Below are positions 28,303 to 61,482 of a DNA stretch of 64,000 bases, in pieces. The stretch comes from Prosthecobacter sp. GTDB lineage: Bacteria; Verrucomicrobiota; Verrucomicrobiia; Verrucomicrobiales; Verrucomicrobiaceae. Position 1 is the stretch's first letter; each line of letters opens with the position of its first letter. The stretch lies in the NCBI RefSeq assembly GCF_029946185.1, contig NZ_JAQSEA010000029.1, forward strand, positions 1 to 64,000, written 5' to 3'. The notes under the pieces were generated by a model. It made no database searches. It was given only the letters and a program-made list of their open reading frames with translations, and was not told where the DNA came from. Both the position numbers and the translations under genes were made by a program.

Positions 28303-31300
28303 ATGAGCGTGCCTTCTGATGTTCCCAAAAAGACCCGCCGCTGGTGGAGATGGATGAAACGACTGCTCCTAGCTGGCTTTGCGCTGCTGGTGCTGGCGGT
28401 CGTTTTCCATGAATCGTTGCTGCGCTGGGCGGTGGGCTACAGCGGCCAGCGGGGTATTGAGGTGGCGGGGATCAAGATCAAGTGGCAGGGGGATGGGTCC
28501 GTGCTGCGGGATTTAAAGCTCAATCACATCGAAGCCAGCGGGTCGCTGGTGGAGCGAGCGACGATTGGCAAGGTGGAGGTGAACTACGATGCCTGGACGT
28601 TTCTCAAGACCCGTAACGTCGACATTGTGAAAAGTGTGGTGGTGAAGGACGCGGATGTGGCGCTGGATCTACGCAAGCTGGCCACGGATGAAAAGGTGGT
28701 GGTGGAGGTGAAGCAGCCGCCATCAGGCAAGCCGCCGCCACTGGTATGGCCGAAGACGATCGACATCGAAAACGTGAATACCGAGGTGATTCTCGCAGAC
28801 GGGCGCAAGATCACGGTGCGTGGCCTGAGCCTGCGGGTGGGCGAAGGCATGCCGGGGATTTTTGAGCTCGCTGAGTTCAAGATGGAGCCGGGAGATGTGC
28901 GCGTCGTGGATGTAAAAGCGCAGGTTCAGTGGGGAGAGCGCACGCTGAAAGTTACAGGACTTGATCTGCCGTATGGCGCGAAGCTGAAATCACTCGCGGT
29001 GGATTTGAGCGAATGGGACAAGGATGCAGCGAGTGTGAAACTGGATGTGGGGATGGGCAAAGCTGCATTGGTCGTGGAAACGCTGGCGCGCGGGCTGTTT
29101 GGTGGTGAGATGCAGGCGAAGGTTGATGTGCACGTGAGCGACCTGTCCTCAAGCGAACTAACAGCGATCAAGCTGCCGGAGGGCGTCGAGTTCGGGCCGG
29201 TGAGTGTGGATTTGCACGCCGAGGGCGATCCGACCAAACCGATGACGCTGGCGGCGAATGGGAAGATCAGCATTCCTGAGGTGCGGGCTGCGGGCGCCGT
29301 GCTGGACTCGATCACGACCACGCTGGAGGTCAAAGATGGCGTGGCGCGTGTGAAGGAGCTGAGGGTGCTGCGCGGTGTGAATGAAGTGGTGGCGGAGATG
29401 GAGTCGAAGCTGGCCGAGGATGTGATGAAGTCGCCGTGGACAGCCAAGGTGAAGGCCAAGATTGCCGATGTGACTCAACTGCTGGCGAAGCCGCCACCGG
29501 CACGCGGCTTGATCGAACTCACGGCGGATGCCAAGGGAATCGGTGCCACACCGACGAAGGTCGCGGCGCAGGTCAATGGGACAGACTTGGGCTTTGAAAG
29601 CTACAAGCTGCCGCAATTAGGCGTGACCTTAAGTCTGGATGGCAAGGAGGCGAAAGTGAGCGTGCCTGCGCTGATGCTAGGCGCTGGAAATCGCGTAGAT
29701 CTCAATGCGACGATGATGATGGATGATGCGATGCCTGTGGAGGCAGCATGGCGCATTCAATTTGATGATCCTATGGCTTTGATGCAAACGGTGGGGCTAG
29801 CGCCGCTGGAGAAACCGATGATGGCGAAGATCGCCATAGCGGGCAAAGCAGCCTTCAAGGTGAATGATGTGATGAATATGGACGCCGAGGTCGATCTGAG
29901 TGTGAAGGAGGGGCGCTTTGACAATGCACCGCTACCGGTGGTCGAGATGAAGGTGAAGGTGGCGAAGGGAGAAGCCACCTTGCAGCCATGCCGCATCGTG
30001 GTGGATGTGCAGAACCACATCGAACTGAAGGGCAAGGCGAAGCTGCAGGCACCGTGGGGTTTTGATTTGAATGGAGACATCGCGCTGCCGGTGCTCATGA
30101 GCTTGAACCCGCTACTGGCCGCCGTGAAAGCGCCAGCCATTGAGTCGGGCAGTCTGGCGGTGAAACTGAATATGAGCGGCGACGCGAGCCCGTGGCGCGG
30201 TGAAGGCAGCGTCGAGATGCAGGCGGCGAAGGTGAAGGTGGCGGGAATGCCGGAGGCGGCGGATGTGGATTTAAAGACGACGTTTGCCGGCACCACGGCG
30301 CAGATCGAGACGATGCAGGCAGTGCTGGGGCCGTGGAAGCTTCTGACCAAGGGCACGGTGACGAACAAGGAGGCGCATTTGAGCGAGCTGAGTTTTTGGC
30401 AGAAGGACCGGCAACTGATGAGCGGGCATGCCCATGCGCCGTTTGATGTGATGCAAACCGAAGTGGTGAAAGGTGTACCGCTGGATGTGGTGCTGAATGC
30501 GCAAGAGCTGCCGATTCATGACATCGCGGCGGCAGCGGGTGTGAAGAGTGTGCCGCCGGGGCTGCTGAGCATGGAGGTGAAGATCGGCGGACGGCTGGAT
30601 ACGATGGATGCGTCCGTGAAGGTGGGGGTTAAGGAGCTGAAAGCACCTGGACTGACGAAATCATTTAAACCGGCCATCGTCGATGTGCTCGCGACGTTGA
30701 AGGCGAATCAACTGGTGCTTGATGTGACTGCGGTGCAGGCACCGCTGAAACCTTTGACATTGAAGGCGACAGTGCCGGTGGTGCTGACGAAACTGGTCAA
30801 GGAGCCCGCACTTGCGATGGACCTGCCATTGAAGGCGACGCTGGACCTGCCAGAGAGCGATCTGAGTTTTGCGCGTGAGTTTGCGCCTGACATGCTGCGG
30901 TCAGTGCCAGCGAAATTGAAACTGCATGCGACGGTAGGCGGCACGGTGAGGGCACCGCTGATTGATTCGGTGCTCGATCTAGATGCGCCGACGATCGATT
31001 TCGTGAGCGCGGACATGCCGAGCGTGCGTGATCTGCGCGTGAAGATACACTCCCATGATCGCAAGGTGACGCTGGAAAACATTTCGGTGACGCTGGCCGG
31101 TGGGAAGGTGCGGCTGGGAGGAATGCTGGATGCGGCCAACACCCAGGACCCACGATTTGATCTCAAGGTGGAAGCACGTGAGGCGCTGGTGATGCGGAAC
31201 CCGACCTCAAGCGTGCGTGCAAACGCAGACGTCGCGTGCGTGGGCACTCTGAAGGCGGCACGCGTGAGCGGCACGGTGGAGATCGTGCGAGGCCGTGTTT

Positions 31301-32106
31301 TCCAAGAAGTGAACCTGCTGCCGAATGTCATGGGCATGATTGAGCAGGGCGAAAAACTGCCACCGCCACCGCCTTCAACCTCAAAGATCGAGCAAAATCT
31401 GACACTGCCGCCGATGCTGCAGGACTGGACATTCGACTTGAAAGTGAGGACGCGTGATCCGGTGGTGATCGCGGGCAATCTCATGAATGGGGCCATCTCG
31501 GCCGACATTGCGGTCGGCGGCACGGGTGCGGCACCGCGAGTGACGGGCTTTGCGAATGTGGACCGCATGGTGCTGAAGCTGCCGTTCAGCCTGCTGAAGA
31601 TCACGAAGGGCGTGGTGACGATGAATCCGGACAATCCATTCACGCCCAAGCTCGATGTGCGGGGGGAATCACGCGTGGGGAGCCATGACATCACACTGTA
31701 TGTCTATGGGGATGCGTCGAATCCGAAGACACGCTTTACCAGTTCGCCGCCGCTGTCGGAAGCAGACATCGTGACACTGCTAGGAACGGGGATGACGCTG
31801 GGCGGCGACAATTCGCAGATGGCGAGCGAGGCGATAACGCGCGCAGCTTTTATCGTGATCGCCGAGACCTATCGGAAAATCTTCAACAAGAAAAAGACGG
31901 TGAGCCCCGATCCGCCAAAACTGCACACGACTTTCAATCCCTCAGGAGCCGATCGTTCGAGTGACAGCGTGCAGGCGATGTACGAGATCACGCCGAAGGT
32001 GAGGTTCATCGCCCGCTTTTCGCAAACGGGACGCATGAAGGCGCTACTGGGCTATGTGCTGAAATTTGGCAAGGCAGCGAGAGCCATGGATGAGGACACG
32101 CAATGA
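28303..32106 (+). CDS. tamB: TamB-like translocation and assembly protein (DUF490)
   Basis: A 1267-residue protein with one N-terminal membrane helix (about residues 20-42) and a long repetitive beta-rich body of AsmA/TamB type, rich in Lys and Val. The C-terminal DUF490/TamB domain is clear: VTGFANVDRMVLKLPFSLL, MNPDNPFTPKLDVRGESRVG, then SSPPLSEADIVTLLGTGMTL. TamB spans the periplasm and works with TamA in outer-membrane protein insertion or lipid transport. The stop overlaps the tamA start by ATGA. Confidence 0.9.
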   Translation: MSVPSDVPKKTRRWWRWMKRLLLAGFALLVLAVVFHESLLRWAVGYSGQRGIEVAGIKIKWQGDGSVLRDLKLNHIEASGSLVERATIGKVEVNYDAWTFLKTRNVDIVKSVVVKDADVALDLRKLATDEKVVVEVKQPPSGKPPPLVWPKTIDIENVNTEVILADGRKITVRGLSLRVGEGMPGIFELAEFKMEPGDVRVVDVKAQVQWGERTLKVTGLDLPYGAKLKSLAVDLSEWDKDAASVKLDVGMGKAALVVETLARGLFGGEMQAKVDVHVSDLSSSELTAIKLPEGVEFGPVSVDLHAEGDPTKPMTLAANGKISIPEVRAAGAVLDSITTTLEVKDGVARVKELRVLRGVNEVVAEMESKLAEDVMKSPWTAKVKAKIADVTQLLAKPPPARGLIELTADAKGIGATPTKVAAQVNGTDLGFESYKLPQLGVTLSLDGKEAKVSVPALMLGAGNRVDLNATMMMDDAMPVEAAWRIQFDDPMALMQTVGLAPLEKPMMAKIAIAGKAAFKVNDVMNMDAEVDLSVKEGRFDNAPLPVVEMKVKVAKGEATLQPCRIVVDVQNHIELKGKAKLQAPWGFDLNGDIALPVLMSLNPLLAAVKAPAIESGSLAVKLNMSGDASPWRGEGSVEMQAAKVKVAGMPEAADVDLKTTFAGTTAQIETMQAVLGPWKLLTKGTVTNKEAHLSELSFWQKDRQLMSGHAHAPFDVMQTEVVKGVPLDVVLNAQELPIHDIAAAAGVKSVPPGLLSMEVKIGGRLDTMDASVKVGVKELKAPGLTKSFKPAIVDVLATLKANQLVLDVTAVQAPLKPLTLKATVPVVLTKLVKEPALAMDLPLKATLDLPESDLSFAREFAPDMLRSVPAKLKLHATVGGTVRAPLIDSVLDLDAPTIDFVSADMPSVRDLRVKIHSHDRKVTLENISVTLAGGKVRLGGMLDAANTQDPRFDLKVEAREALVMRNPTSSVRANADVACVGTLKAARVSGTVEIVRGRVFQEVNLLPNVMGMIEQGEKLPPPPPSTSKIEQNLTLPPMLQDWTFDLKVRTRDPVVIAGNLMNGAISADIAVGGTGAAPRVTGFANVDRMVLKLPFSLLKITKGVVTMNPDNPFTPKLDVRGESRVGSHDITLYVYGDASNPKTRFTSSPPLSEADIVTLLGTGMTLGGDNSQMASEAITRAAFIVIAETYRKIFNKKKTVSPDPPKLHTTFNPSGADRSSDSVQAMYEITPKVRFIARFSQTGRMKALLGYVLKFGKAARAMDEDTQ

Positions 32107-34175
32107 TGAATCGAGAAAGCAGCATGAAAAATGGAAGCCGGCTGCTATGCGCCCGGCTGATTTTGCTGGCGCTGTTTAGCCTGATGGGATCCGCGTGGTC
32201 TCATGAGGTGCATCTTGGCCAGACGACGGTGAAGGTAAACGGCGTGGAAGAAGAGCATTGGGACGATCTGCGCAGCATGCTGATGGATCAGCTCACGCTG
32301 AATGGCAACGGTCCAGCTGGCGAGCCGCTGGCGGATGATCTGGCGTTTTTTGTGCGGCAGCATTTCATCCGCGAGGGATGGCCGGACGCTGAAACGGCGT
32401 GGAAAATGGCCAGGGGCGGCATCGAACTGAACGTGAAGCAGGGCAAGGCCGTGCGCGTGGGAACCGTGACACTGAAAGGTGATTTGCCGCTGCCGGAGGA
32501 GGAACTGAAAAAGTACCTGATGAAGCCAACGCTGGAACGCGAGGATGTGGACAAAAAACTGCCGCAATGGGTGGAGGCAGACATGGAGCAGGGCGCAGGG
32601 CTGGTGCAGCGGCGCCTGCGTGCCGAAGGCTACCTGAATGCGGAAACGCTGCTGCTGCCCGCACCGACCACGGGCAAGGACATGCGGCGAGATCTGACGC
32701 TGGAGATCAAACCGGGGCCGAAGTTTATTTTTGGCCAGACATCAATCACGGGATCGCCACCGCAGTTAGAGAAACTGACGCAGGCGGAGATGACGGAGGC
32801 GAGCGGTACGCCCTTCAATGAAGCGCGGGTGCAGTTGATCCAACAGCGGCTGGATTCGATCTGCTCTGAACACGGCTGGCTGCATTCGGCGACGACGGCG
32901 GAGTACACACTGGGCAAATCCGGGGGCGCAGTGGATGTGGTGTTTCGTGTACAGGCCGGTGAGCGTGTGAGGATCGCCCGTATCACGACGCATGAAGCTT
33001 TCAGTCGTGGTGCCAAGCGCGTGCTGATGGCCAAATTCAAACCCCTGACGGGGCAGATCTACGAAGCAGCGGAGGCAGACTTCCTTTTCAAGCGAGCTTT
33101 GGACACGGGGATGTTTGCGCTGCTCGACACCAAGGTACTGCCTGAGAATGGCGACATGGCGGCAGGCAATCTGCGCATCACGGGCGAAGAGACCCAACCG
33201 GTCACTTTGGGGTTTGAGCCAGGTTTTGACACCTTCCTCGGACCCCAGGCAGGCGTGACGTACAAGAACACGAACTGGCGTGACACGGGCAATACGCTGG
33301 CGGCGGAACTGAGCTACAGCATGGCGGGTCCGGTGGGCTTTGTGAGCCTGACCAACCCTGCGGTCTTCAATTCACAGTATTCGACGACGACACGACTCGC
33401 GCTGGAGCAGTTCAACCGCTTCGAGTATGATCGAATCGGCACATCCTTGAGTTTGGATGTGGCACGCCGGCGGAATCAGGCACTGAGCTATTCGTTGTTC
33501 GTGGGCGCGACGGCAAACACGGTCAGCTCCACGAATCTTACGCTGCCGCAGACGGGCCCTGCCAACTACTCACTGATGAACATCGGGGGAAACGTGATGT
33601 ATGACCGCCGGGACAGCCCGGTGCTGCCGAAGAAGGGCTGGTATATTTCGGGACGGATCGAGAGCTCCAACGACGCGCTGGGTTCGGGCGTGAGCTTTAT
33701 ACGCTCCGATCTGCGTGGTGCATGGTACATTCCGATCACTAAGAAGTTCCGCTTCGCCACCGGCGCAGAGCTTTCAACGATTCAAGGGGCAACGGCCGAT
33801 AAAATCCCGATCGACAGCCGCGTGTTCAACGGCGGTCCGTACAGCGTTCGCTCCTTCGGCCAGCGCAAGCTCGGCCCCGTGACTCCGGGCGGAACACCGC
33901 TGGGCGGAACTTCGGCGCTGTTTGCCAGCGCCGAATTTTCCTATGAGATCATGCCGAATTTGGAGTTTGCCGTCTTTGGCGACATCGGCAGTCTGGGACA
34001 GGGGAACAACTCCTCGCCGCTCTCCTACTCCTCAGACTTCCGCGAGGCCATCGGCGCGGGCTTGCGCTACAAGCTGCCGTTTGGACCGATCCGCATCGAC
34101 TACGGGCACAATCCCAACCCGCGCCTTGGCGAGCAAAGCGGATTCCTGCATGTGACGGTGGGATTTGCGTTCTGA
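32103..34175 (+). CDS. tamA: TamA/BamA-family outer membrane protein (POTRA plus barrel)
   Basis: A 690-residue Omp85-family protein. After a signal peptide (hydrophobic LLCARLILLALFSLMGSAWS) there are about three POTRA-like repeats (VRVGTVTLKGDLPLPEEELKK, FIFGQTSITGSPPQLEKL, VRIARITTHEAFSRG) and a 16-stranded-type barrel from about 355, with YDRRDSPVLPKKGWY and the loop region FNGGPYSVRSFGQRKLGP. The last residue is Phe (VTVGFAF), the C-terminal sorting signal for outer-membrane proteins. Translationally coupled to tamB. A second possible start lies at 32124. Confidence 0.9.
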   Translation: MMNRESSMKNGSRLLCARLILLALFSLMGSAWSHEVHLGQTTVKVNGVEEEHWDDLRSMLMDQLTLNGNGPAGEPLADDLAFFVRQHFIREGWPDAETAWKMARGGIELNVKQGKAVRVGTVTLKGDLPLPEEELKKYLMKPTLEREDVDKKLPQWVEADMEQGAGLVQRRLRAEGYLNAETLLLPAPTTGKDMRRDLTLEIKPGPKFIFGQTSITGSPPQLEKLTQAEMTEASGTPFNEARVQLIQQRLDSICSEHGWLHSATTAEYTLGKSGGAVDVVFRVQAGERVRIARITTHEAFSRGAKRVLMAKFKPLTGQIYEAAEADFLFKRALDTGMFALLDTKVLPENGDMAAGNLRITGEETQPVTLGFEPGFDTFLGPQAGVTYKNTNWRDTGNTLAAELSYSMAGPVGFVSLTNPAVFNSQYSTTTRLALEQFNRFEYDRIGTSLSLDVARRRNQALSYSLFVGATANTVSSTNLTLPQTGPANYSLMNIGGNVMYDRRDSPVLPKKGWYISGRIESSNDALGSGVSFIRSDLRGAWYIPITKKFRFATGAELSTIQGATADKIPIDSRVFNGGPYSVRSFGQRKLGPVTPGGTPLGGTSALFASAEFSYEIMPNLEFAVFGDIGSLGQGNNSSPLSYSSDFREAIGAGLRYKLPFGPIRIDYGHNPNPRLGEQSGFLHVTVGFAF

Positions 34176-45831: not shown

Positions 45832-47322
45832 ATGCACACCTCCGGAACAGCCCATAGTTTGACGATTGCGAAACGAGCTGCGCGAGATGCTTTGCTCTTT
45901 GCAGCCGCCTATGGCATCGCAAACTACGTTCGCTTCACCGAGTTGTGGCGAATCGACAGCTTTGCTCCGCCCATCGTGATCGGGGCGCTTGTGCTCGTAT
46001 GCACCACCTACATCCTCGGATTGTACTCCGTGGAGTCCCAACGAAGGTCAGGGTTTAGGATTCACCTGGTTCTTTTAACATTTGGCTTTTTAATGGCTCT
46101 GATCGCCGTCACTCTCTGCGGCTACATCAGTTTTGATCAACGCGTCGGGCGAGGATTCATGGCCTTGGGCTGTCTGTTTTCCTATCCTCTGCTGCTTGTT
46201 AATCACTGGTTCATATTTCACAAGCACAGGATCGCCCCGCGACGCATTGCTTTTCTTGTCGAATCCGAAAGTGAGATGATCGAATACCAGCGGATTCGGA
46301 AAACGCCTCTTTCAGGTGTTCATCCGGTAGGCAGAATTTCAATTTCCCCGGATTCAATTCAAGAAGCTGATTACCTTGGGAGCCTTGACGATGCCCCAAG
46401 GATTATGAAGACATACAATTTGGACTGTCTGGTTTTTTCAGAAGCCCACATAGAGAACGGGTCGATTCGTACTCGGCTGCGTCAATTGCGCTATCTTGGG
46501 ATCACGTGCACGCCCTTGATCGACGTGTGCGAAAAGCACCTCCATTACGTTCCTCTGCATCTGGTTTCACTCAACTGGCTGCTCTATTCAGAGAAAGGCT
46601 CGAGGAATCTCTATTTCAGTAAAATGAAGCGGCTTTTTGACATCATCAGCTCATTGGTGCTCATGGTCGTGCTGGCTCCGTTTCTCTTGGTCGGCATGGC
46701 AATCGTTCGCATCTTCTCTCCCGAGGGGCCGATGTTTTTCACTCAGGAACGAGTGGGGCGATTCGGCAAGCCCTTCACAATCTGGAAGCTGCGAAGCATG
46801 CGTCTTGATGCCGAATCAGCCGGGCCGGTATGGTCGGCTGCGTTTAAGGATCCGCGGGTTTTCCCCGGTGGAGCCCTGCTGCGCAAGTACCGTATCGACG
46901 AAATCCCCCAGCTGATCAACGTTCTTAGGGGAGATATGTCTTTCGTTGGCCCGCGTCCAGAGCGACCAGGATTCGTGAAACAACTCAGCGAAACACTCCC
47001 GTTTTACGAAGAGCGGCACATGATCCATCCGGGACTTACTGGCTGGGCTCAGGTCTGCTACCCGTACGGAGCCTCCATCGAGGATTCGAAGTGCAAATTG
47101 GAATACGATCTCTACTACCTGAAACACGCAGGCGTCGTCTTCGATTTGCTCATCCTCCTCGACACCGTGCGTGTTGTTCTGGGCGGCGGGTTAAAACCAT
47201 CCGCTCGCCAACGCTACTCTGGCGGAGAGGCGTCAGAAAAATACTCTCAGCTGGAGGCAGTCATGAGTGCGAAAATAGCCACTGAGCAAGGCCACCTCCA
47301 ACCCGCTTCCAGGATAGCCTGA
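45832..47322 (+). CDS. Polyprenyl glycosylphosphotransferase (initiating sugar transferase)
   Basis: A 496-residue WcaJ/EpsL-type enzyme that starts polysaccharide repeat-unit synthesis by moving a sugar phosphate to undecaprenyl phosphate. N-terminal membrane helices (about 18-130), a Rossmann-like middle part, a further helix with DIISSLVLMVVLAPF, then the catalytic domain: FTQERVGRFGKPFTIWKLRSM, RKYRIDEIPQLINVLRGDMSFVGPRPE and HPGLTGWAQV. A 162-base gap separates it from the GT2 gene. Confidence 0.93.
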   Translation: MHTSGTAHSLTIAKRAARDALLFAAAYGIANYVRFTELWRIDSFAPPIVIGALVLVCTTYILGLYSVESQRRSGFRIHLVLLTFGFLMALIAVTLCGYISFDQRVGRGFMALGCLFSYPLLLVNHWFIFHKHRIAPRRIAFLVESESEMIEYQRIRKTPLSGVHPVGRISISPDSIQEADYLGSLDDAPRIMKTYNLDCLVFSEAHIENGSIRTRLRQLRYLGITCTPLIDVCEKHLHYVPLHLVSLNWLLYSEKGSRNLYFSKMKRLFDIISSLVLMVVLAPFLLVGMAIVRIFSPEGPMFFTQERVGRFGKPFTIWKLRSMRLDAESAGPVWSAAFKDPRVFPGGALLRKYRIDEIPQLINVLRGDMSFVGPRPERPGFVKQLSETLPFYEERHMIHPGLTGWAQVCYPYGASIEDSKCKLEYDLYYLKHAGVVFDLLILLDTVRVVLGGGLKPSARQRYSGGEASEKYSQLEAVMSAKIATEQGHLQPASRIA

Positions 47323-53004: not shown

Positions 53005-54225
53005 TTACGGCTTCGAACTTCCGCCTGTGAGACGCATTCTGGCCATTACAGCCCGATGCTGTGAAGGGCGTTTCTTTTCAGTGAGGCACTCGACCGCCTT
53101 CCAATGTCGGTCGTAAAAAATATAATCGATGCGCATCCAGGGGCCGCCCAAACTCAAAGGATTGCGAGTCACCCCGGGAAATGTAAAGCCAAACCCATGC
53201 CCGGCCGCCGCGTGGGCGTCGCCCAGTTCCGCAGCCAGCATTCTGTGGATATAGCCAACGTGTGGCGCGTTAAAGTCACCGGCGAGGATGCATGGATTGG
53301 CATCTGCGCGCACGGACGCCATGATCTGGCTGGCATCGTTGATCTGCTGGTCCCAAAACGTCTGGTAGTGTCTGCGTTTCTCGGCCCCGGGAGTGCCCGG
53401 AACCCCGAGGATACCCCACAGGAAAGCACCCCTCATGTAAAAACCGAGCACATCGCGTGGGGTCATCAAATGCACGACATAGACTGATATGGGCCTGCCG
53501 TTCCAATCGATCACAAACCGTGCAGCCCTGGCGCTACCCAAGCTCGCAGCAGGCACCAGAGAGCGGTCTTTAATCGGGTAGCGGCTGAGCAAGGTGAACT
53601 CCCCAATATCCGCTGCATGGCCAAACTCGGCATAATCTGGAGAATGCAGAAACCCAGCCGCCCGCCCCCCCGCCTCCTGAAACACCAAGATGTCAGGATG
53701 GGTGGCGTTCTTGAACGGCTGCAGGCTTTGGCTCATATTCTGACCTCGGTTGTAGGTCATCACTGAAATTTCATGGGTCTCACCCCCATCCCCCGTCGCC
53801 GTAGAGAGCCTGACGAGCGGATAACCCAGCCAGAGCATTAGCAAACATCCCATGGCGATCTGAGCCATCAGACACCGTCGGTAAAACAGCAGCCCGAGCA
53901 GCATGAGCGGCGCTAGGGGGAGAAGCCAGAGCGACGGCGGTAGATAAATCAAAAAGGCGGTGGTGATGTTGCGCTCGCCCACGAAGTGCATGGCAAAGCA
54001 GAGTCCAGCCCCGAGGACAAAATAGATCACGGTCAGCCATAGCGTGAGGCTGCGAAAAAAACGACCGATCAACTTAAGCAATCCCCCCTGCTCTGCTGCG
54101 ACAATCAATTTACCACCCAGGCGAGACGCGATGCGGTCCACCTGTCCCATTTGCGTCGCCTGTGTGGGCGCACCGCGCCCGGTCAGGTCAGCAGCAGTGT
54201 TTGGGTCTGGGCTGTCGAAAGCCAT
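53005..54225 (-). CDS. Endonuclease/exonuclease/phosphatase-family protein, membrane-anchored
   Basis: A 406-residue protein. Three hydrophobic segments (about residues 60-140) precede an EEP domain: ISVMTYNRGQN, DILVFQEAG, SVYVVHLMTP, LAGDFNAPHVGYIH, RIDYIFYDRHW and PSQHRAVMARM. The final motif is SQH where most family members have SDH, so catalysis could be altered. EEP proteins cleave phosphodiesters of nucleic acids or lipids. Seven bases separate its start from the stop of the upstream pseudopilin-like gene, so they form an operon. Confidence 0.82.
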   Translation of the reverse strand: MAFDSPDPNTAADLTGRGAPTQATQMGQVDRIASRLGGKLIVAAEQGGLLKLIGRFFRSLTLWLTVIYFVLGAGLCFAMHFVGERNITTAFLIYLPPSLWLLPLAPLMLLGLLFYRRCLMAQIAMGCLLMLWLGYPLVRLSTATGDGGETHEISVMTYNRGQNMSQSLQPFKNATHPDILVFQEAGGRAAGFLHSPDYAEFGHAADIGEFTLLSRYPIKDRSLVPAASLGSARAARFVIDWNGRPISVYVVHLMTPRDVLGFYMRGAFLWGILGVPGTPGAEKRRHYQTFWDQQINDASQIMASVRADANPCILAGDFNAPHVGYIHRMLAAELGDAHAAAGHGFGFTFPGVTRNPLSLGGPWMRIDYIFYDRHWKAVECLTEKKRPSQHRAVMARMRLTGGSSKP

Positions 54226-54232
54226 TGAATCA

Positions 54233-54526
54233 TCATTGGGCGCGTGGCTTCTCCGCTGGCTGGGACCTCGCAGGCGGGCCGCTACCCAGACCAGTCTGCT
54301 CTCTCACGACATCAGGAAGCAGAGTATCGCCTGATATCGGCAGGGTGATGGTGGATTCATCCCCGCCTTTCTTCTTCCACTCGGGATTATCGGCGTCCCG
54401 CACACTGGTCGGCCCCCGCTTGATGACAGCAAAAGTTACCAAGCAGAAGGCAGTCAGCAGCACCAACATCAAGCAAGACTCAAGAATTGTGAATCCCAAT
54501 TTACGCTGGCTGGGCTGTGTCGTCAT
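54233..54526 (-). CDS. Pseudopilin-like protein (type IV prepilin motif)
   Basis: About 97 residues from the ATG at 54526. After a short leader it has RKLGFTILESCLMLVLLTAF: Gly before Phe, Thr, a hydrophobic run and Glu at position +5, the prepilin peptidase and N-methylation signature. The rest is hydrophilic and rich in Pro and Arg. A start at 54640 would overlap the lipoprotein gene and give a long leader. No pilus assembly genes are in the window. Function within an exopolysaccharide locus is not clear. Confidence 0.65.
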   Translation of the reverse strand: MTTQPSQRKLGFTILESCLMLVLLTAFCLVTFAVIKRGPTSVRDADNPEWKKKGGDESTITLPISGDTLLPDVVREQTGLGSGPPARSQPAEKPRAQ

Positions 54527-54636
54527 GGGCAAAGTTGGATCAATTCCCTCTCCGCTCCGCATGGTCGCCGCCCTTGGCTTAAATATGACCTGCAAACCTT
54601 TTTTAATCTCCCCATGTGAAGGGCGCTTAAAGCGTT

Positions 54637-54879
54637 TCACGGGTAAGAGATAACGGTTTGCTTTTTACCAGCTCCCGATCGTTGATCGAAGACCGACTCT
54701 TCACGCTGAATGTCCTTGGGGATGTAGACTGAAGGAGTAATAGAGTTACCCTGCCCTCCGAAATAATGACCGTTCTGGCTTGCACCGAAAGGGTAAAGGG
54801 ACGCGCAATTGGTCAATAAAAAAACTGAAAAAAGCGGCAACAGCAACCGTATGTGAGCAGAGGATTCAAGTTTGGACAT
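54637..54879 (-). CDS. Small lipoprotein
   Basis: About 80 residues from the ATG at 54879. A hydrophobic signal (LLLPLFSVFLLTNC) ends in a lipobox with Cys, so the mature protein is about 60 residues, probably attached to the outer membrane. The mature part has GASQNGHYFGGQGN and a charged tail. A longer start at 54966 is possible. No family recognised; first gene of a three-gene minus-strand group. Confidence 0.6.
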   Translation of the reverse strand: MSKLESSAHIRLLLPLFSVFLLTNCASLYPFGASQNGHYFGGQGNSITPSVYIPKDIQREESVFDQRSGAGKKQTVISYP

Positions 54880-55173: not shown

Positions 55174-55464
55174 ATGCTAACTTTATTAATCAAATTTTTA
55201 ACCCTTGCGCCCGAAAACGTCAGCAAGGAAGTCTACTGGGCACTCGGCGCTATATATTTCATTTTTATCATCGCTACGATCTTAAGCATTAAGAAAACCA
55301 CTTCCAGCCTCGCCCTGAAACTGGCATGGATTCTGCTCGTAACTTTTCTACCAGTAATTGGCATCGCTATTTACTGCATCCGCTGCTTGGCATCATCAGA
55401 CTTTCACTTTCTAAAGCAATTCAGCCCTGCCCCGCCGCAAGGCCCAAAACACTGGAATTCGTGA
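55174..55464 (+). CDS. Small membrane protein with PLDc_N-type domain
   Basis: A 96-residue protein with two membrane helices (about 22-41 and 48-70). The second reads KLAWILLVTFLPVIGIAIY, the pattern of the phospholipase D N-terminal (PLDc_N) domain. Such small proteins also occur without the catalytic part. Its role next to export genes is not known. No catalytic HKD motif is present. Confidence 0.65.
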   Translation: MLTLLIKFLTLAPENVSKEVYWALGAIYFIFIIATILSIKKTTSSLALKLAWILLVTFLPVIGIAIYCIRCLASSDFHFLKQFSPAPPQGPKHWNS

Positions 55465-55527: not shown

Positions 55528-57243
55528 ATGATCACAAATCAACTACCAACAGCTGCCGCTCTGTTTATGGCATTGTTTTGTGCTTGTGCAACACAGTCTG
55601 GGGCACAGGATACTATTGTTGAGCCCACGCTACCTACGACCAGAGGAGGACAAGGTTACTTTCCCACCTTGGGAGAAAGCGCTTTGCTCCGAGGCGCTTA
55701 CAACGCCAGATCTCCTCAGGGAGCAGCCCTGGGCAATGCGGAAGGCCCCGATGCAGGTATGCAAACTGCTTCAGGTCTGTTCCCCTATGAGGATTCGGAT
55801 CCTGATTTTTACCAGCGAAATCAGAATTTTTTCAGACCCTTGAACCAGACCCTCGGCTGGCTGACTCCGCATGATGCGTGGACAATGCAGTTTAGTCAGA
55901 TGGATAACAACTCCCTAACGGTAGACGGTAATTTGGGTGGTATTTTCACCCGATCATTTGCGCCAGAACTGGCCACCGTCAAAGCTGGCCCCCTCTATTT
56001 CGACCTCTTATGGGTGGGCGCAGGAGCCATATGGTCAGATTATAATGGCAACCTCAATACCACGGGAAACAGAGGAGACGAAGGAGACGGAGTCATTGCC
56101 TATGTAGATGTCGGCGTGCGTGGAGTCCTCCGAATTTCCGACTCCCTGTACCTTTCTGCAGTAGCGGATCTCATGTATCTCCCTTTTACAAATCGCTTTG
56201 CTCTACAATTTGGCGGAGGGGGCGGAGGACCCGCATTGTTCACCCGTTTAAATTACAGCAAAACCCTAGGTTCTTGGGACGTGCTCTTCTATGACGAATT
56301 CATAGGGCAATCGAGCTTAAACTGGTTTTCGTCGGCGACTGTCAACGGATACGACAGGGCGGGCCGTTATTTTTATGGCTTCCAGACACCTGGACCAACC
56401 AATTCATTCCAAAACTCAGGTTATGCAAGGTTTGGGAATACCATTGGCATGTCCTTATCGACGCTCGTATTTGACAATTCATGGAGGTTGTGGATTACAG
56501 GACGTCATGTGGATTTTTGGCAAGGCTATGAGTTCAGAAATCATGCAAATTTAGAAAACATAGGCGTGGCCTTGGGTTATGAGGGCTCCAAGATTCCGTT
56601 CGCACCACGATTTTCTTACGACATGTATGCTTACGGTGGATCCGATAGCGTTATGCATCAATTCTTGTTGAGCTTAACCGGAAGGCTAACAGAAAATCTC
56701 AACTGGCTGGGAAGCGTAGGTGATTTCTTCATGACAGGAGCCGGGGCGCGTGGATCGAGTGGGAACCGTTTTATTTGGAATATCGACTTAAGGCATTCAC
56801 TCACCCAGAACACGACTCAGTCCTTTGGCCTAGGAGAAACCGTTTTCCACAACAATGTCGTTGGCGAAGCGCTCCTGTCAAGATATGCGCAATACAGCAT
56901 AAACCAACGCCTTAACAGCCGTTCATACGGGAATGCATTCATTCAATACGCGGACAGCGAAACCAACCTTCTCACCATGCAGACCGCCCGGCGAACATCT
57001 GTAGGAGTTGCGTTCAATTACCAACCCTTGGATTTTACCCAACTAAATGCATCGATCATCTATGACAAGTTCAGCCAGAGCACGCTTACCGGTGACAGAT
57101 GGCGCTATATGGTGACTGCTACACAGCAGCTTGGAATGCGTCTTACCGGCAGTTTGTTTTATCAGTATGAAGATTATCAGGTCGACAACCCCGCAAGATT
57201 CTCCGAACATCTTATCGGCGTTACGATCAGAAGGTATTTTTAA
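55528..57243 (+). CDS. Outer-membrane beta-barrel protein, possible polysaccharide exporter
   Basis: A 571-residue protein with a signal peptide (about 1-27) and a barrel of many amphipathic strands, rich in aromatic and glycine residues, ending in IRRYF, the outer-membrane C-terminal signature. The N-terminal 100 residues of the mature protein are less barrel-like. It lies upstream of a short Wza-like export gene. In Myxococcus, short export proteins of this kind work with separate barrels (Wzp proteins); this is the best guess for this one. No sequence motif proves it. Confidence 0.65.
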   Translation: MITNQLPTAAALFMALFCACATQSGAQDTIVEPTLPTTRGGQGYFPTLGESALLRGAYNARSPQGAALGNAEGPDAGMQTASGLFPYEDSDPDFYQRNQNFFRPLNQTLGWLTPHDAWTMQFSQMDNNSLTVDGNLGGIFTRSFAPELATVKAGPLYFDLLWVGAGAIWSDYNGNLNTTGNRGDEGDGVIAYVDVGVRGVLRISDSLYLSAVADLMYLPFTNRFALQFGGGGGGPALFTRLNYSKTLGSWDVLFYDEFIGQSSLNWFSSATVNGYDRAGRYFYGFQTPGPTNSFQNSGYARFGNTIGMSLSTLVFDNSWRLWITGRHVDFWQGYEFRNHANLENIGVALGYEGSKIPFAPRFSYDMYAYGGSDSVMHQFLLSLTGRLTENLNWLGSVGDFFMTGAGARGSSGNRFIWNIDLRHSLTQNTTQSFGLGETVFHNNVVGEALLSRYAQYSINQRLNSRSYGNAFIQYADSETNLLTMQTARRTSVGVAFNYQPLDFTQLNASIIYDKFSQSTLTGDRWRYMVTATQQLGMRLTGSLFYQYEDYQVDNPARFSEHLIGVTIRRYF

Positions 57244-57312
57244 TTTTGCCTGTGAAATCCACCACCGACAAGTTCCTTTTCCATTCTTAACCACTTAGTG
57301 TATATAACTCCC

Positions 57313-58233
57313 ATGGACTCACTGCATTCCCCAACTCATTCATTCACACGCTCCGCTGTGTGTCTTTGCACCTGGGTATTATCAGCACTTTCAGTAAGTA
57401 TCAAAGCTGAAGACTCGCCATCATTGCAAACCAACAAGGATGCGCCTTCAAGTTTCCACAAGTATTTCGGTCAGCGAGTTAACTCCTTTTTGGACGCAGA
57501 ACGCCAGATTGCCAAACTGGATATCGATGCAGACATGAACCATGATGGCATGATTCAAAACATTGATCCGGCTGATAATGGAGCCTTTGAAGCGACGCCG
57601 CCGGGAATGATCTTGGGTGTGGGAGAAATGACCCGTTTCGTCGTCCGTCTGCTGCCTTACCGCGTGGATTTTGAAGGTGAAGTGGTGGTGACATTGGAAG
57701 TGGAAGGCATCAATCGTGGAGTCAAATCCGGAGAATTTGCCTCCATGGACGAGGAACTTCAATCCATGGGCCACATACGTGTCTGGAAGGAAAAGGACAA
57801 AAAGACACTGCTGCTGGACTCCAGAGATCCTGCAAAACGTGTGGTTGAGTTCACCACCCAGTACAAAACCTACCCCTACAACCTGCCCATGACCGTGCCA
57901 CGGGCTGTATACGTAGAGGGGGTGAAGCCCTCTCCACAACACATTGGAGACGTCCGCGTGCTTTGCACGGTCTCTCACCGTGCGCTGCAATCTGAGGGCC
58001 AACGTGCCAATACGGCCAATGCCACAGCAGCGGCTGCCGCCGAAGTGACTTCGGCCAAACAGCCAGAGCCACAGCCAGTGGCGGAAAGAGTAAATCGCCT
58101 CTCCAACATTAAAAGCTTCCGGACGTCATTCGATCACATTCTAGTAACTGTGCAGCCAAAGCCGACCACGAAGCAGTTCATCAATGACAACAACGAAGGT
58201 GTCTGGGTTGCCCCTCCAGGATGGACATATTGA
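57313..58233 (+). CDS. Secreted protein of unknown function in exopolysaccharide locus
   Basis: About 306 residues with a signal peptide (LCTWVLSALSVSIKA). Residues near 70-90 (DIDADMNHDGMIQNIDPADNG) look like an EF-hand or dockerin-type calcium loop. The middle is beta-rich; the C-terminal part has an Ala-rich linker and ends PPGWTY. An upstream start at 57298 adds five residues. Its place between the barrel gene and the Wza-like gene suggests an export accessory protein (inference). Confidence 0.55.
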   Translation: MDSLHSPTHSFTRSAVCLCTWVLSALSVSIKAEDSPSLQTNKDAPSSFHKYFGQRVNSFLDAERQIAKLDIDADMNHDGMIQNIDPADNGAFEATPPGMILGVGEMTRFVVRLLPYRVDFEGEVVVTLEVEGINRGVKSGEFASMDEELQSMGHIRVWKEKDKKTLLLDSRDPAKRVVEFTTQYKTYPYNLPMTVPRAVYVEGVKPSPQHIGDVRVLCTVSHRALQSEGQRANTANATAAAAAEVTSAKQPEPQPVAERVNRLSNIKSFRTSFDHILVTVQPKPTTKQFINDNNEGVWVAPPGWTY

Positions 58234-58253
58234 TCCTGATTGTGGATTCCCAC

Positions 58254-58279
58254 TTCCAGCTATGCTCTCGCAGCTGGAA
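58254..58279. terminator. Hairpin between export genes, weak terminator candidate
   Basis: TTCCAGCT/AGCTGGAA perfect 8-bp stem with a 10-base loop, 20 bases after the upstream stop. No T-run follows, so it could be an RNA processing or pausing site instead. Confidence 0.35.
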
Positions 58280-58381
58280 TCCAACCCACCTACCGATTAG
58301 GTGTCATTGATCAGAACGACAGCTTTTTCTCACATCTGCTTGATTGCTTGGATGACCTTGCAAAAGTGATATCCAAATCCT

Positions 58382-59086
58382 ATGCCATCTTTTCGCCGCC
58401 TCAGTAGCTTTCCTTCCAGTTGTGTGTTTTTGATCGTGTCGACTTTTTCAGCGTGTTCGCATCGAGACCCCTCGTCAGGCGATCTCCCTCCTCTGTCAGG
58501 CATGTCTGAAAATGTGGTGCGGACACCAATCGCCAAGGATGTTTTTCTGGCGGGCGACAATCTCGAATTGTTTGTCAAGGAAGATGCGACTCTTAACAAC
58601 AGCTATCCAGTTCGTGAAGGTGGATACATCGTCATTCCCAGGGCTGGACGCATCTCAGTGTCTGGACTATCCCGTGCCGAGGCGGAAGCTCGGGTTAAAG
58701 AAGCCTTGCAAGGAACTCAGTTAACTAAGGCCACCGTATTGGTGGAACGCATGAGCAAGAGCGCCCAGTTCGCTTCAACGCCCGGAGCAGCCTCCACCGT
58801 TCCAAAGATCATGGTTTACATCACCGGAGCGGTGAAACAGCCGGGAACCCATTTTGTGCCGAGTTCGGATGGACATTCGCTTGGCATCTACGAGACACTG
58901 CTCATCACTGGCGGGTTGGGCCGCCTCGCGCAAGATCAGCGCGTTGAGGTGATGCGAGTGAATGCTTCTGGCAGACGGCAGCGGGCCATCATTGATATTC
59001 GCAAAGTGGCCTTGGGGCTTGCTGATGACCCGCCGGTTGGCGAAGGGGATATCATCCATGTGCCGGAAAAGGTGTTCGGCTTTTGA
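58382..59086 (+). CDS. Wza-like polysaccharide export lipoprotein (short OPX type)
   Basis: A 234-residue protein. A signal peptide ends in a lipobox (STFSAC). The polysaccharide export domain follows (DNLELFVKEDATLNNSYPVREGGYIVIPRAGRISVSG), then a SLBB-like domain (IMVYITGAVKQPGTHFVP, then LLITGGLGRLAQDQRVEVMRV). It has no C-terminal helix to form an outer-membrane pore, so it needs a partner barrel; the 571-residue protein upstream is the natural candidate. The Wzc-like kinase gene follows after 116 bases. Confidence 0.9.
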   Translation: MPSFRRLSSFPSSCVFLIVSTFSACSHRDPSSGDLPPLSGMSENVVRTPIAKDVFLAGDNLELFVKEDATLNNSYPVREGGYIVIPRAGRISVSGLSRAEAEARVKEALQGTQLTKATVLVERMSKSAQFASTPGAASTVPKIMVYITGAVKQPGTHFVPSSDGHSLGIYETLLITGGLGRLAQDQRVEVMRVNASGRRQRAIIDIRKVALGLADDPPVGEGDIIHVPEKVFGF

Positions 59087-59202
59087 CATGACTTTCTCTC
59101 TGGCGTGCATTCTATGCGCAGGGGACAACATTGAAAGTCTTCCAACTCATATCTTCACTTAGCAAGTCGCTGTAAGCTTTGCATCACCCTCTACTGCCCC
59201 GC

Positions 59203-61482
59203 ATGCCGCCTCCGAACAAAAAGTCAGTCACTGCAGCCCCCAAAGTGGACGGCAACACTTTTTTGCGCTTTCTGCTCAGCTATGAAGATTATTTGATATT
59301 GATGCTGCTGTTGTTCAGCTTAGGTCTCTTGGGCGGCCTGATTGGCTTTATTTATACCCGTCCCACTTTTTCGTCCACAGCCTTGCTCCGAGTCAATCAA
59401 TTCGTGGACAGCTCGCGAACCGCAGAAGGGGGAGGGCGCTCTATCGATTATCACTTGATGCGCTCCATCCTGCTTGAACTGGGCAGTGGGCGTATGGTTC
59501 TTGAGGCGAGTAAATCGCTTGGGCTGGCAGACGAATCAACGAGTTATAACAATTTGCGTGAATCGCTGGTGCCAGCGGTTCGCATCGGAATTCTAGATTC
59601 GACCCACATTGAACTGGGCATTGTCGGTTTCACACCACGTGTCGTGCGTGAACTGCCAGCAGCCCTCGCGGAGACTTACGAAGCCGTCAGAGTGCGTCAA
59701 AGAATCGATTTCCGGGAAAAGGCCATCAAACGCTACGTGGACGAAATTTCCGTCGTTCGAGCCAAAGTGTCCGCTCAGCTCGATACTCAGCTGAAATTTG
59801 AAGAAGAAAGTGCGCTGGCGAGTGCGCAGATTGAGCTTGAGCGCCTCAGCAACGTTCCTGTGGAACTGGTCAGAATGCGTTATCGACTCGGAGAGATGGA
59901 CCGAGTTAATAACATTTTGAATGATCAAAAATCCGTGCTGGGGGAAGTCGGAATGCTGGCCTTGCTGACCAGCCTGCCGGCTGATACCGCGTCCGCTGAT
60001 CCGCTGAGTTCGGGCACTATTGTACGGAATTCAGGCACATCCACAGCACCGTTTACCTTTTCGAGCCCCACTAAAACCCCCCAAAGCACCCAGGTTGTGG
60101 TGCAGCCGGATATGGTAGAAGGTCTCGAGCCCTGGCAAGATCTCGAAAAGAAGAAGCGAACTCTGGAGGAAAAGATGCGACTAACACGCACTAAGTTTCT
60201 CGAAGATCATCCGGAGATGATCAAGATGAATGAGGAACTACGGGAGGTGACTTCAGCACTGAATTTGGAACTTGAGGTGGCCCGCAAGTCCTTCTCACTG
60301 GAATACGCCCGTACAAAGGAATCCATCAAGACTCTCGAGGAAAAACTGCCTGATTATCATAAAGCCACCAAGTCTTTCGACGAGAAAAAAATGGGCTATG
60401 ACCTCATGAAAAAGGGGCAGCTTGCTTGGGACAAGGCATACGAGGAGCTCAGCAAGCAAATCGAAGGTCTGCAATTCGGGGGCGATGGCGCGGCGGTTGA
60501 CATTGAATTCCGAGGATTCATCGAAGTTCGCAGCGAGATCCCTATTTCTCCCAGCAAATCCAAACTGGCCATGATGGGGTGCATGCTGGGCATTGGCCTC
60601 GCTGGCGGAATTCCCTATCTGTTCCGACGCTTCAGCACATCTGTTTCAGATCTTAATGAGTTTGAAGTCAGCCTGGGAATTCCCGGCATCGGACTGGTTC
60701 CACTTACCGATCCAAAAATTTTGGAGGACATCAATCGTTCACCCACCGTGGGAGCCACCACCCCAAACGCTTTGCTGGAAAACTTTCGACTGATCCGCAG
60801 CAGCATTATTCTGAACAAAGGTCCCAAAGGGGACATGCGAGTGATGATGGTGACCAGTGCGCGCCCGGGTGAGGGCAAAACCACGGTTGCTGTCAATACC
60901 GCTTGGGCGTTCTCCTCTTTGGGTGAGCGAACCTTGGTGATTGACTGTGACTTGCGGCGCGGGCGTGTTCACAAAGTGGCGGGAATTGTCAATCATCCCG
61001 GCATGACGGATTTGCTCACCGGTGCGGCTACAATCGAGCAGTGCATTCAGAAGTCTCCCGCTGACAACTTGTGGCTGATTCCCCGCGGCGCTGTTGTACC
61101 TGGCACAACCGAACTGCTCAACACTGCAGTGTTTTCAAATATCCTTGAGAAACTCAAGGGGGCGTTTGACCGCATCGTTTTGGACACCCCTCCCGTGCTG
61201 GGTCTCAGTGAAACAGCGTTTTTGCAAAACCATGCTGATGGAGTGGTTCTCGTTGTCAAATCTGACAGCACTCCGAGAAAAGACGTCGAGGACGCCTTTT
61301 TTGCGCTCCAAAAACTGGGTGCCCACTTCTACGGGTTTGTCCTCAATCGAGTGGACTTCACCAAACGGGCCAATCACTACTACTATTACTACTACTCATC
61401 CAGCTACTACGATTCCAACTGGGAAACCGAGGAGGAAGCCAAGGAGCCGCCGACTAAAAAGGCCTCACCATTCGCCTCATAG
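59203..61482 (+). CDS. Wzc-like polysaccharide co-polymerase and tyrosine autokinase
   Basis: About 759 residues. A Wzz-type domain lies between two membrane helices (about residues 31-51 and near 455-475), with a long coiled coil in the periplasmic part. The bacterial tyrosine kinase domain has Walker A SARPGEGKTT at about 553, LVIDCDLRRG and IVLDTPPVLGLSE. The C-terminus carries the tyrosine cluster HYYYYYYSSSYYDSNW, the autophosphorylation site. It sets chain length by cycling with Wza and Wzy. A TTG at 59179 would add eight residues. The kinase and Wzz halves are fused, as in E. coli Wzc. Confidence 0.93.
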   Translation: MPPPNKKSVTAAPKVDGNTFLRFLLSYEDYLILMLLLFSLGLLGGLIGFIYTRPTFSSTALLRVNQFVDSSRTAEGGGRSIDYHLMRSILLELGSGRMVLEASKSLGLADESTSYNNLRESLVPAVRIGILDSTHIELGIVGFTPRVVRELPAALAETYEAVRVRQRIDFREKAIKRYVDEISVVRAKVSAQLDTQLKFEEESALASAQIELERLSNVPVELVRMRYRLGEMDRVNNILNDQKSVLGEVGMLALLTSLPADTASADPLSSGTIVRNSGTSTAPFTFSSPTKTPQSTQVVVQPDMVEGLEPWQDLEKKKRTLEEKMRLTRTKFLEDHPEMIKMNEELREVTSALNLELEVARKSFSLEYARTKESIKTLEEKLPDYHKATKSFDEKKMGYDLMKKGQLAWDKAYEELSKQIEGLQFGGDGAAVDIEFRGFIEVRSEIPISPSKSKLAMMGCMLGIGLAGGIPYLFRRFSTSVSDLNEFEVSLGIPGIGLVPLTDPKILEDINRSPTVGATTPNALLENFRLIRSSIILNKGPKGDMRVMMVTSARPGEGKTTVAVNTAWAFSSLGERTLVIDCDLRRGRVHKVAGIVNHPGMTDLLTGAATIEQCIQKSPADNLWLIPRGAVVPGTTELLNTAVFSNILEKLKGAFDRIVLDTPPVLGLSETAFLQNHADGVVLVVKSDSTPRKDVEDAFFALQKLGAHFYGFVLNRVDFTKRANHYYYYYYSSSYYDSNWETEEEAKEPPTKKASPFAS

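Follow-up and report, generated by a model that had tools for sequence, protein, structure and literature searches.

The pairing of an outer-membrane polysaccharide export (OPX) protein with a separate beta-barrel in one translocon has already been published (PMC9601211, PMC9603273), and the available portions of the first article report this split principle for 10 phyla. They also describe how EpsX and EpsY interact, stabilise each other and are required for exopolysaccharide (EPS), in a survey that used two barrel seeds, EpsX-type and VpsM (PMC9601211). Barrels of the Wzi type, with 18 strands (PMC9601211), likewise adjoin OPX genes in the survey of PMC9603273, as far as its accessible parts go, and the string "Verrucomicrobi-" is absent from the main text of both articles. 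Here, we present a computational analysis of an export locus carried by a 64,000-nucleotide stretch (the window) that is part of contig C29 (NZ_JAQSEA010000029.1) in the 6.19-Mb draft genome, 95.9% complete, of a Prosthecobacter species. Composed of an outer-membrane beta-barrel, a secreted middle protein and a short OPX lipoprotein, this locus very probably encodes a known kind of sugar-polymer exporter (short lipoprotein plus separate barrel); the split OPX/barrel principle being already known, the new element is the middle protein.

The three open reading frames (ORFs) were confirmed at the places given by the initial annotation and are followed on the same forward strand by a Wzc-type kinase gene, the four genes being consecutive. 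They encode a 571-residue outer-membrane beta-barrel ending in Phe, proposed as the EPS conduit from the ORF list, alignment and model (55528-57243); a 311-residue middle protein with an EF-hand-like loop, then a domain rich in beta structure and, at the C-terminus, a conserved tail (57298-58233); a 234-residue OPX lipoprotein of the D1D2 type (class 3) with lipobox Cys25 (58382-59086); and, directly after OPX, a polysaccharide co-polymerase with a tyrosine autokinase domain and a Tyr-rich tail (59179-61482; Pfam/NCBIfam), displaying two hydrophobic segments and a periplasmic part of ~400 residues.

The OPX protein contains a Poly_export domain (PF02563; residues 57-121, positions 58550-58744, forward strand) matched at 43.1 bits against a Pfam cut-off of 28, together with a weak SLBB match of 15.6 bits, under the Pfam cut-off of 27. 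Its match to TIGR03027, scoring 50 bits and thus below the curated cut-off of 180, extends to the final position of the model at residue 232 of 234, leaving no room for a C-terminal helix, as the initial annotation had proposed for this Wza-like protein. Sequence alignment placed the ends of 24 relatives at the same position or within a few residues, most of the 25 aligned C-termini finishing in or near VPEKVFGF. The lipobox Cys was aligned and invariant in 25/25 rows, and the strict lipobox pattern was positive in 19/25, the misses resulting mostly from start choice. The closest solved relatives by sequence were the polysaccharide export protein 9n9a and PslD (9v6l). Judged from its sequence, this is a short OPX lipoprotein (at most 280 residues) without the outer-membrane helix of the Wza type: whereas Wza, a class 1 OPX, carries a C-terminal amphipathic outer-membrane helix, the sequence here stops at SLBB.

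By anatomy and linkage, the locus agrees with the split exporter as in Myxococcus that had been suggested for it. According to the available parts of both articles, the Myxococcus-type and VpsN-VpsM systems (PMC9601211) and the class 3 OPX plus Wzp systems (PMC9603273) share with it a short Poly_export/one-SLBB lipoprotein without helix, linked, within an EPS cluster, to a barrel gene and a co-polymerase of the Wzc type. It departs from these descriptions in its longer barrel, predicted with ~22 strands against 18 in the Myxococcus-type barrel, in the third gene inserted between barrel and OPX, and in the periplasmic part of its Wzc, which is not clearly extended.

We found 26 loci with the middle family in the genome collection (designated below by L numbers), and the barrel-middle-OPX order and strand were kept in 25 of them as in the window, the sole exception (L100) being severed by a contig end. 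The barrel gene lies two genes from OPX in the window and in 25/26 related loci, and Wzc is directly downstream in 16 of the 27 loci (the 26 plus the window) and upstream in 4 more. The co-occurrence proposed by the initial annotation as a check was thereby recovered, and its contrary case, a barrel with no link to export genes elsewhere, is the opposite of what was found, the link holding across genomes. These counts are not of independent lineages, because the pairs L077/L103, L078/L102 and L079/L101 each appear to be one record present in two collections, and close kinship links L094/L097/L067, L087/L088 and L090/L106. The profiles annotating the family loci were iterated on those same loci. 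Start codons in the alignments were script-chosen, some of them too far downstream; rows were dropped from alignments A2 (L085, cut barrel), A3 (L100, cut) and A4 (L087, bad start choice, and L100). One locus, L093, titled a Falkowbacteria metagenome-assembled genome, holds a Verrucomicrobial gene set and is probably a misbinned contig.

At the family scale, the middle protein was matched in 41/68 genomes, strongly (E <= 1e-50) in 27 and weakly in 14. In 26 of the 27 strong cases, OPX is encoded at most 340 bp away, the remaining contig being cut. At the phylum scale, it was found in only 8/387 genomes, seven times in the order of the window and once as a weak match inside a 1390-residue frame. 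On this sequence survey, the middle protein is nearly confined to Verrucomicrobiales, a distribution that makes it a partner specific to this lineage, joined to a barrel-OPX pair of wider occurrence. The "Verrucomicrobia form" put forward initially is retained as a lineage-specific variant and not as a form of the whole phylum: in other Verrucomicrobiota, the partner of OPX is a TIGR03016/EpsL-type barrel and the middle protein is absent.

A Pfam/NCBIfam scan of the window's barrel alone gave no family match, and the barrel-family profile retrieved no sequence relative among solved structures (best E 0.058). Within the barrel family (n = 26), 16 members match TIGR03016 (best 1.4e-7) and 7 match DUF2490, the barrel score on TIGR03016 being 28.6 bits (E 1.6e-6), under the curated cut-off of 90.85. 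The C-terminal residue is Phe in 24/26 members and Tyr in the two others. Searching the family profile in the 387 phylum genomes revealed 35 places in 30 genomes, and 30 loci were examined with a neighbourhood threshold of E <= 1 (weakest accepted Wzc matches near 3e-3). An OPX gene was present within ~1.5 kb in 22 of these 30 loci, with only a Wzc-like gene in 3 more; the 23 weak matches taken alone include 15 beside OPX and 3 more beside a Wzc-like gene only. Ten weak-match barrels were aligned, among which 7 match TIGR03016 (best 1.2e-18), 6 EpsL/TIGR03014 and 7 BBP2_2, and hhalign joined this set to the window's barrel family with a probability of 99.1 over the C-terminal half. In the host genome itself, a second OPX on contig C108 adjoins another TIGR03016-like barrel. 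Given the TIGR03016/EpsL profile match and these OPX-adjacent relatives, including that of C108, the barrel is a long, diverged and distantly related cousin of the barrels adjoining OPX genes in EPS loci.

TIGR03016 and TIGR03014 (EpsL) represent outer-membrane barrels of XrtA/XrtB PEP-CTERM EPS loci, with which the window also shares an OPX protein nearest to TIGR03027 and a host genome holding two exosortases; by contrast with these loci, the host exosortases lie on other contigs than the export genes, and the barrel is ~100-150 residues longer than the aligned TIGR03016-type relatives. Verrucomicrobium spinosum is named in the PEP-CTERM founding paper (PMC1569441), in the portion available, and our search of the open-licence literature found no paper on TIGR03016.

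The AlphaFold model built with the 26 sequences predicts a long antiparallel strand series, in line with the 571-residue, Phe-terminated barrel of the initial annotation, and DSSP delineated ~22 strands in residues 128-571 after merging of short fragments, a count that is itself uncertain. Foldseek TM-scores were ~0.2-0.4, and VIA-align gave porins, TonB receptors, MtrB, AlgE (13.5) and PelB (13.1) similar Z values, all near 13-15, so that fold alone does not decide barrel function. The lower deviation (rmsd) from larger receptors (6-7) than from 16-18-strand porins (~10), together with the strand list, suggests with moderate confidence a wide barrel of ~22 strands. An ordinary small-solute porin placed here by chance could draw on the many porins that align equally well by Z (14 to 15), with an rmsd near 10; such a placement is very improbable given the linkage to OPX and Wzc genes across both the family and the phylum.

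The barrel could otherwise be a Wzi-like surface anchor or receiver of the polymer, another barrel of the genome acting as the conduit. Its strongly conserved N-terminal stretch (residues ~41-112, with FPT, R, GPD and FPY motifs), in which helices are predicted at residues 94-112, could fill the barrel, and the published survey mentioned above also places Wzi-type barrels near OPX genes (PMC9603273, in its accessible parts). Against this, the relatives of the window's barrel are precisely those beside OPX genes across the phylum, its predicted size exceeds the 18 strands given for Wzi in the available text (PMC9601211), and the OPX protein, having no pore of its own, needs a separate conduit. 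Wzi was not among the best 50 VIA-align rows listed for the barrel, which excludes nothing. We consider a Wzi-like role quite unlikely. The conserved N-terminal stretch is a candidate OPX contact or plug.

We regard it as fairly likely that the locus provides an EPS pathway of the Wzx/Wzy type with its export machinery across the envelope, formed by Wzc, an OPX ring, the barrel and the middle protein as accessory. From Wzc in the inner membrane, the polymer would pass to short OPX lipoproteins, arranged as a periplasmic ring that has no outer-membrane pore, and then exit via the separate large beta-barrel. The ring, its contact with the barrel and the passage of the polymer are proposed by analogy with two systems, EpsY/EpsX and the class 3 OPX-Wzp pairing. 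The middle protein may then be a periplasmic or outer-membrane-facing accessory holding or stabilising the OPX ring on the barrel, a role to which we give close to an even chance. Compared by description only, the PelC ring/PelB barrel of Pseudomonas also places a periplasmic partner under an outer-membrane EPS barrel, although the PelC ring is made of lipoproteins (PMC12141448, in its available part), unlike the middle protein. Among the matches listed by a search of the open-licence literature, none described a third component of an OPX/barrel translocon in its title or the opening of its abstract.

By eye, the N-terminus of the middle protein is signal-peptide-like, without a constant lipobox. 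The calcium-type loop already noted initially (DMNHDGMIQNID, residues 79-90, positions 57532-57567 of the forward strand) was recovered by pattern search: D-x-[DN]-x-D-G-x-[ILVM]-x3-D is present in 25/26 members against 7/26,000 shuffles, and in 1/90 window ORFs of at least 150 residues. These features suggest a protein secreted by Sec and binding calcium via the EF-hand-like loop. Its nearest named relatives belong to Prosthecobacter and other Verrucomicrobiaceae; Pfam, NCBIfam and PDB sequence searches produced chance-level matches only, and no kin was found in viral contigs or plasmids. Diverged relatives with a changed loop were observed outside EPS loci in L073 (8266-9096) and L075 (9093-9887), where they adjoin HU-like and protease-like genes by eye. 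Over 22 loci, mean identity is 0.54 in the middle protein, 0.40 in OPX and 0.31 in the barrel. Being the most conserved of the three, the middle protein fits a machine part better than a fast-changing matrix protein, and this conservation, combined with its strict position, favours a place at the OPX-barrel junction. Linkage and conservation thus sustain the initial suggestion of a new component, whose role would be that of an accessory.

Several observations weigh against this exporter and its accessory. Of the 14 weak middle proteins, 8 have OPX in their vicinity and 6 are on a contig different from that of OPX, and two divergent middle proteins that were examined sit amid unrelated genes. 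Barrel-OPX pairs without the middle protein exist (L065, L066 and loci of the TIGR03016/EpsL type), indicating that it is no general need, and both OPX and Wzc are missing from the vicinity in 5/30 loci matched by the barrel profile. The barrel model reaches a mean confidence (pLDDT) of 72 and a pTM of 0.61, with residues 1-92 under 50. Finally, promoter and terminator scans showed no excess over shuffles, leaving a single operon unsupported.

That the middle protein is dispensable elsewhere and has relatives outside EPS loci speaks for a place on the polymer outside. With the exporter otherwise unchanged, the middle protein would then be no part of it and could serve, once secreted, as a matrix or anchoring protein that depends on calcium and binds the polymer at the surface. 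Genes for matrix proteins are often encoded with the polymer pathway. The signal-peptide-like N-terminus and the calcium-type loop are consistent with such a function, as is the model of the middle protein (mean pLDDT 69), which is beta-rich and yields weak, non-significant Ig- and cohesin-like matches. Another family, too, includes a large protein of secreted type (L144, forward strand) in which a loop-plus-beta motif resembles that of the middle protein, a hint that Verrucomicrobiota may hold a broader family of such modules. Surface matrix proteins are usually more variable, whereas the middle protein is better conserved than OPX and the barrel, and it stands strictly between them in 25/26 loci. 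We hold the matrix function to be a serious possibility, if a less than probable one.

The structural comparison provided a lead of another kind. In the middle-protein model, most 10-residue blocks of residues 101-230 have pLDDT values of 75-95, with residues 81-101, including part of the loop, under 50, and Foldseek returned no match at E <= 0.001. In VIA-align, the first 26 rows are all peptidylarginine deiminase (PAD) entries or PADI6-containing oocyte lattices, with Z from 8.7 to 7.4 over 119-142 aligned residues (rmsd 3.1-4.3; in the best row, 133 residues align at rmsd 3.7 with 17% identity and Z 8.7), only little above the unrelated proteins that follow at Z 7.3. The aligned part of PAD carries its calcium-binding middle domain. 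The middle protein differs from PAD in having neither the catalytic deiminase domain nor a sequence match: PAD_M (PF08527) matched 0/26 members at E <= 1, the PDB sequence search with the middle protein recovered no PAD, and PAD_M was matched at E <= 1 in 44 of 288 phylum genomes, always below the cut-off. This likeness, seen in the model, is a lead that sequence searches do not confirm. It is rather unlikely that the middle protein is a calcium sensor resembling the PAD middle domain and inserted, as a further ring or collar, between the ring of OPX and an unusually wide barrel of ~22 strands; if true, this would make a three-part outer-membrane translocon, undescribed in the open-licence literature searched, and polysaccharide export in Verrucomicrobiaceae would be assembled or gated by periplasmic calcium.

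Beyond the export genes, the window encodes a Wzy_C-type polymerase/ligase (PF04932; 61531-63075, reverse strand), likely of the same pathway, and a polyprenyl glycosylphosphotransferase (45832-47322, forward strand; NCBIfam) scoring above the TIGR03025 cut-off and near TIGR03013, which from its sequence would start the Wzx/Wzy pathway. Neither of these, nor the Wzc-type kinase, was part of the initial annotation. Pfam/NCBIfam scans also identified several glycosyltransferases and methyltransferases and a PIG-L deacetylase; together with the Wzy_C protein, these neighbours mark a region for EPS synthesis by the Wzx/Wzy route. A Wzx flippase was not recognised among the proteins scanned.

Just upstream of the barrel, a 96-residue membrane protein (55174-55464, forward strand) has a PLDc_N match of 26.5 bits. 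Divergent from the export genes, an 80-residue putative lipoprotein with an LLTNC lipobox and no Pfam match (54637-54879, reverse strand) precedes a small prepilin-like ORF with, by eye, a type IV pilin-type hydrophobic N-terminus (54233-54640, reverse strand); the latter was rejected as an export component, recurring in 1/45 loci. A membrane protein of the endonuclease/exonuclease/phosphatase family (53005-54225, reverse strand), with relatives in 23 of the 45 export-gene loci examined, is a possible further companion gene. Farther away, a TamB-like protein is directly followed by an Omp85/POTRA protein, forming a TamA/TamB-type pair (28303-34175, forward strand).

Altogether, the locus extends the known split exporters by a family of longer barrels that, in its lineage, is almost always accompanied by a third gene. 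Furthermore, the exosortase-linked barrels of the TIGR03016/EpsL type become tied to the same job, as they adjoin OPX genes across Verrucomicrobiota, and the middle protein emerges as a conserved candidate for a calcium-dependent accessory of polysaccharide export, testable by a single deletion.

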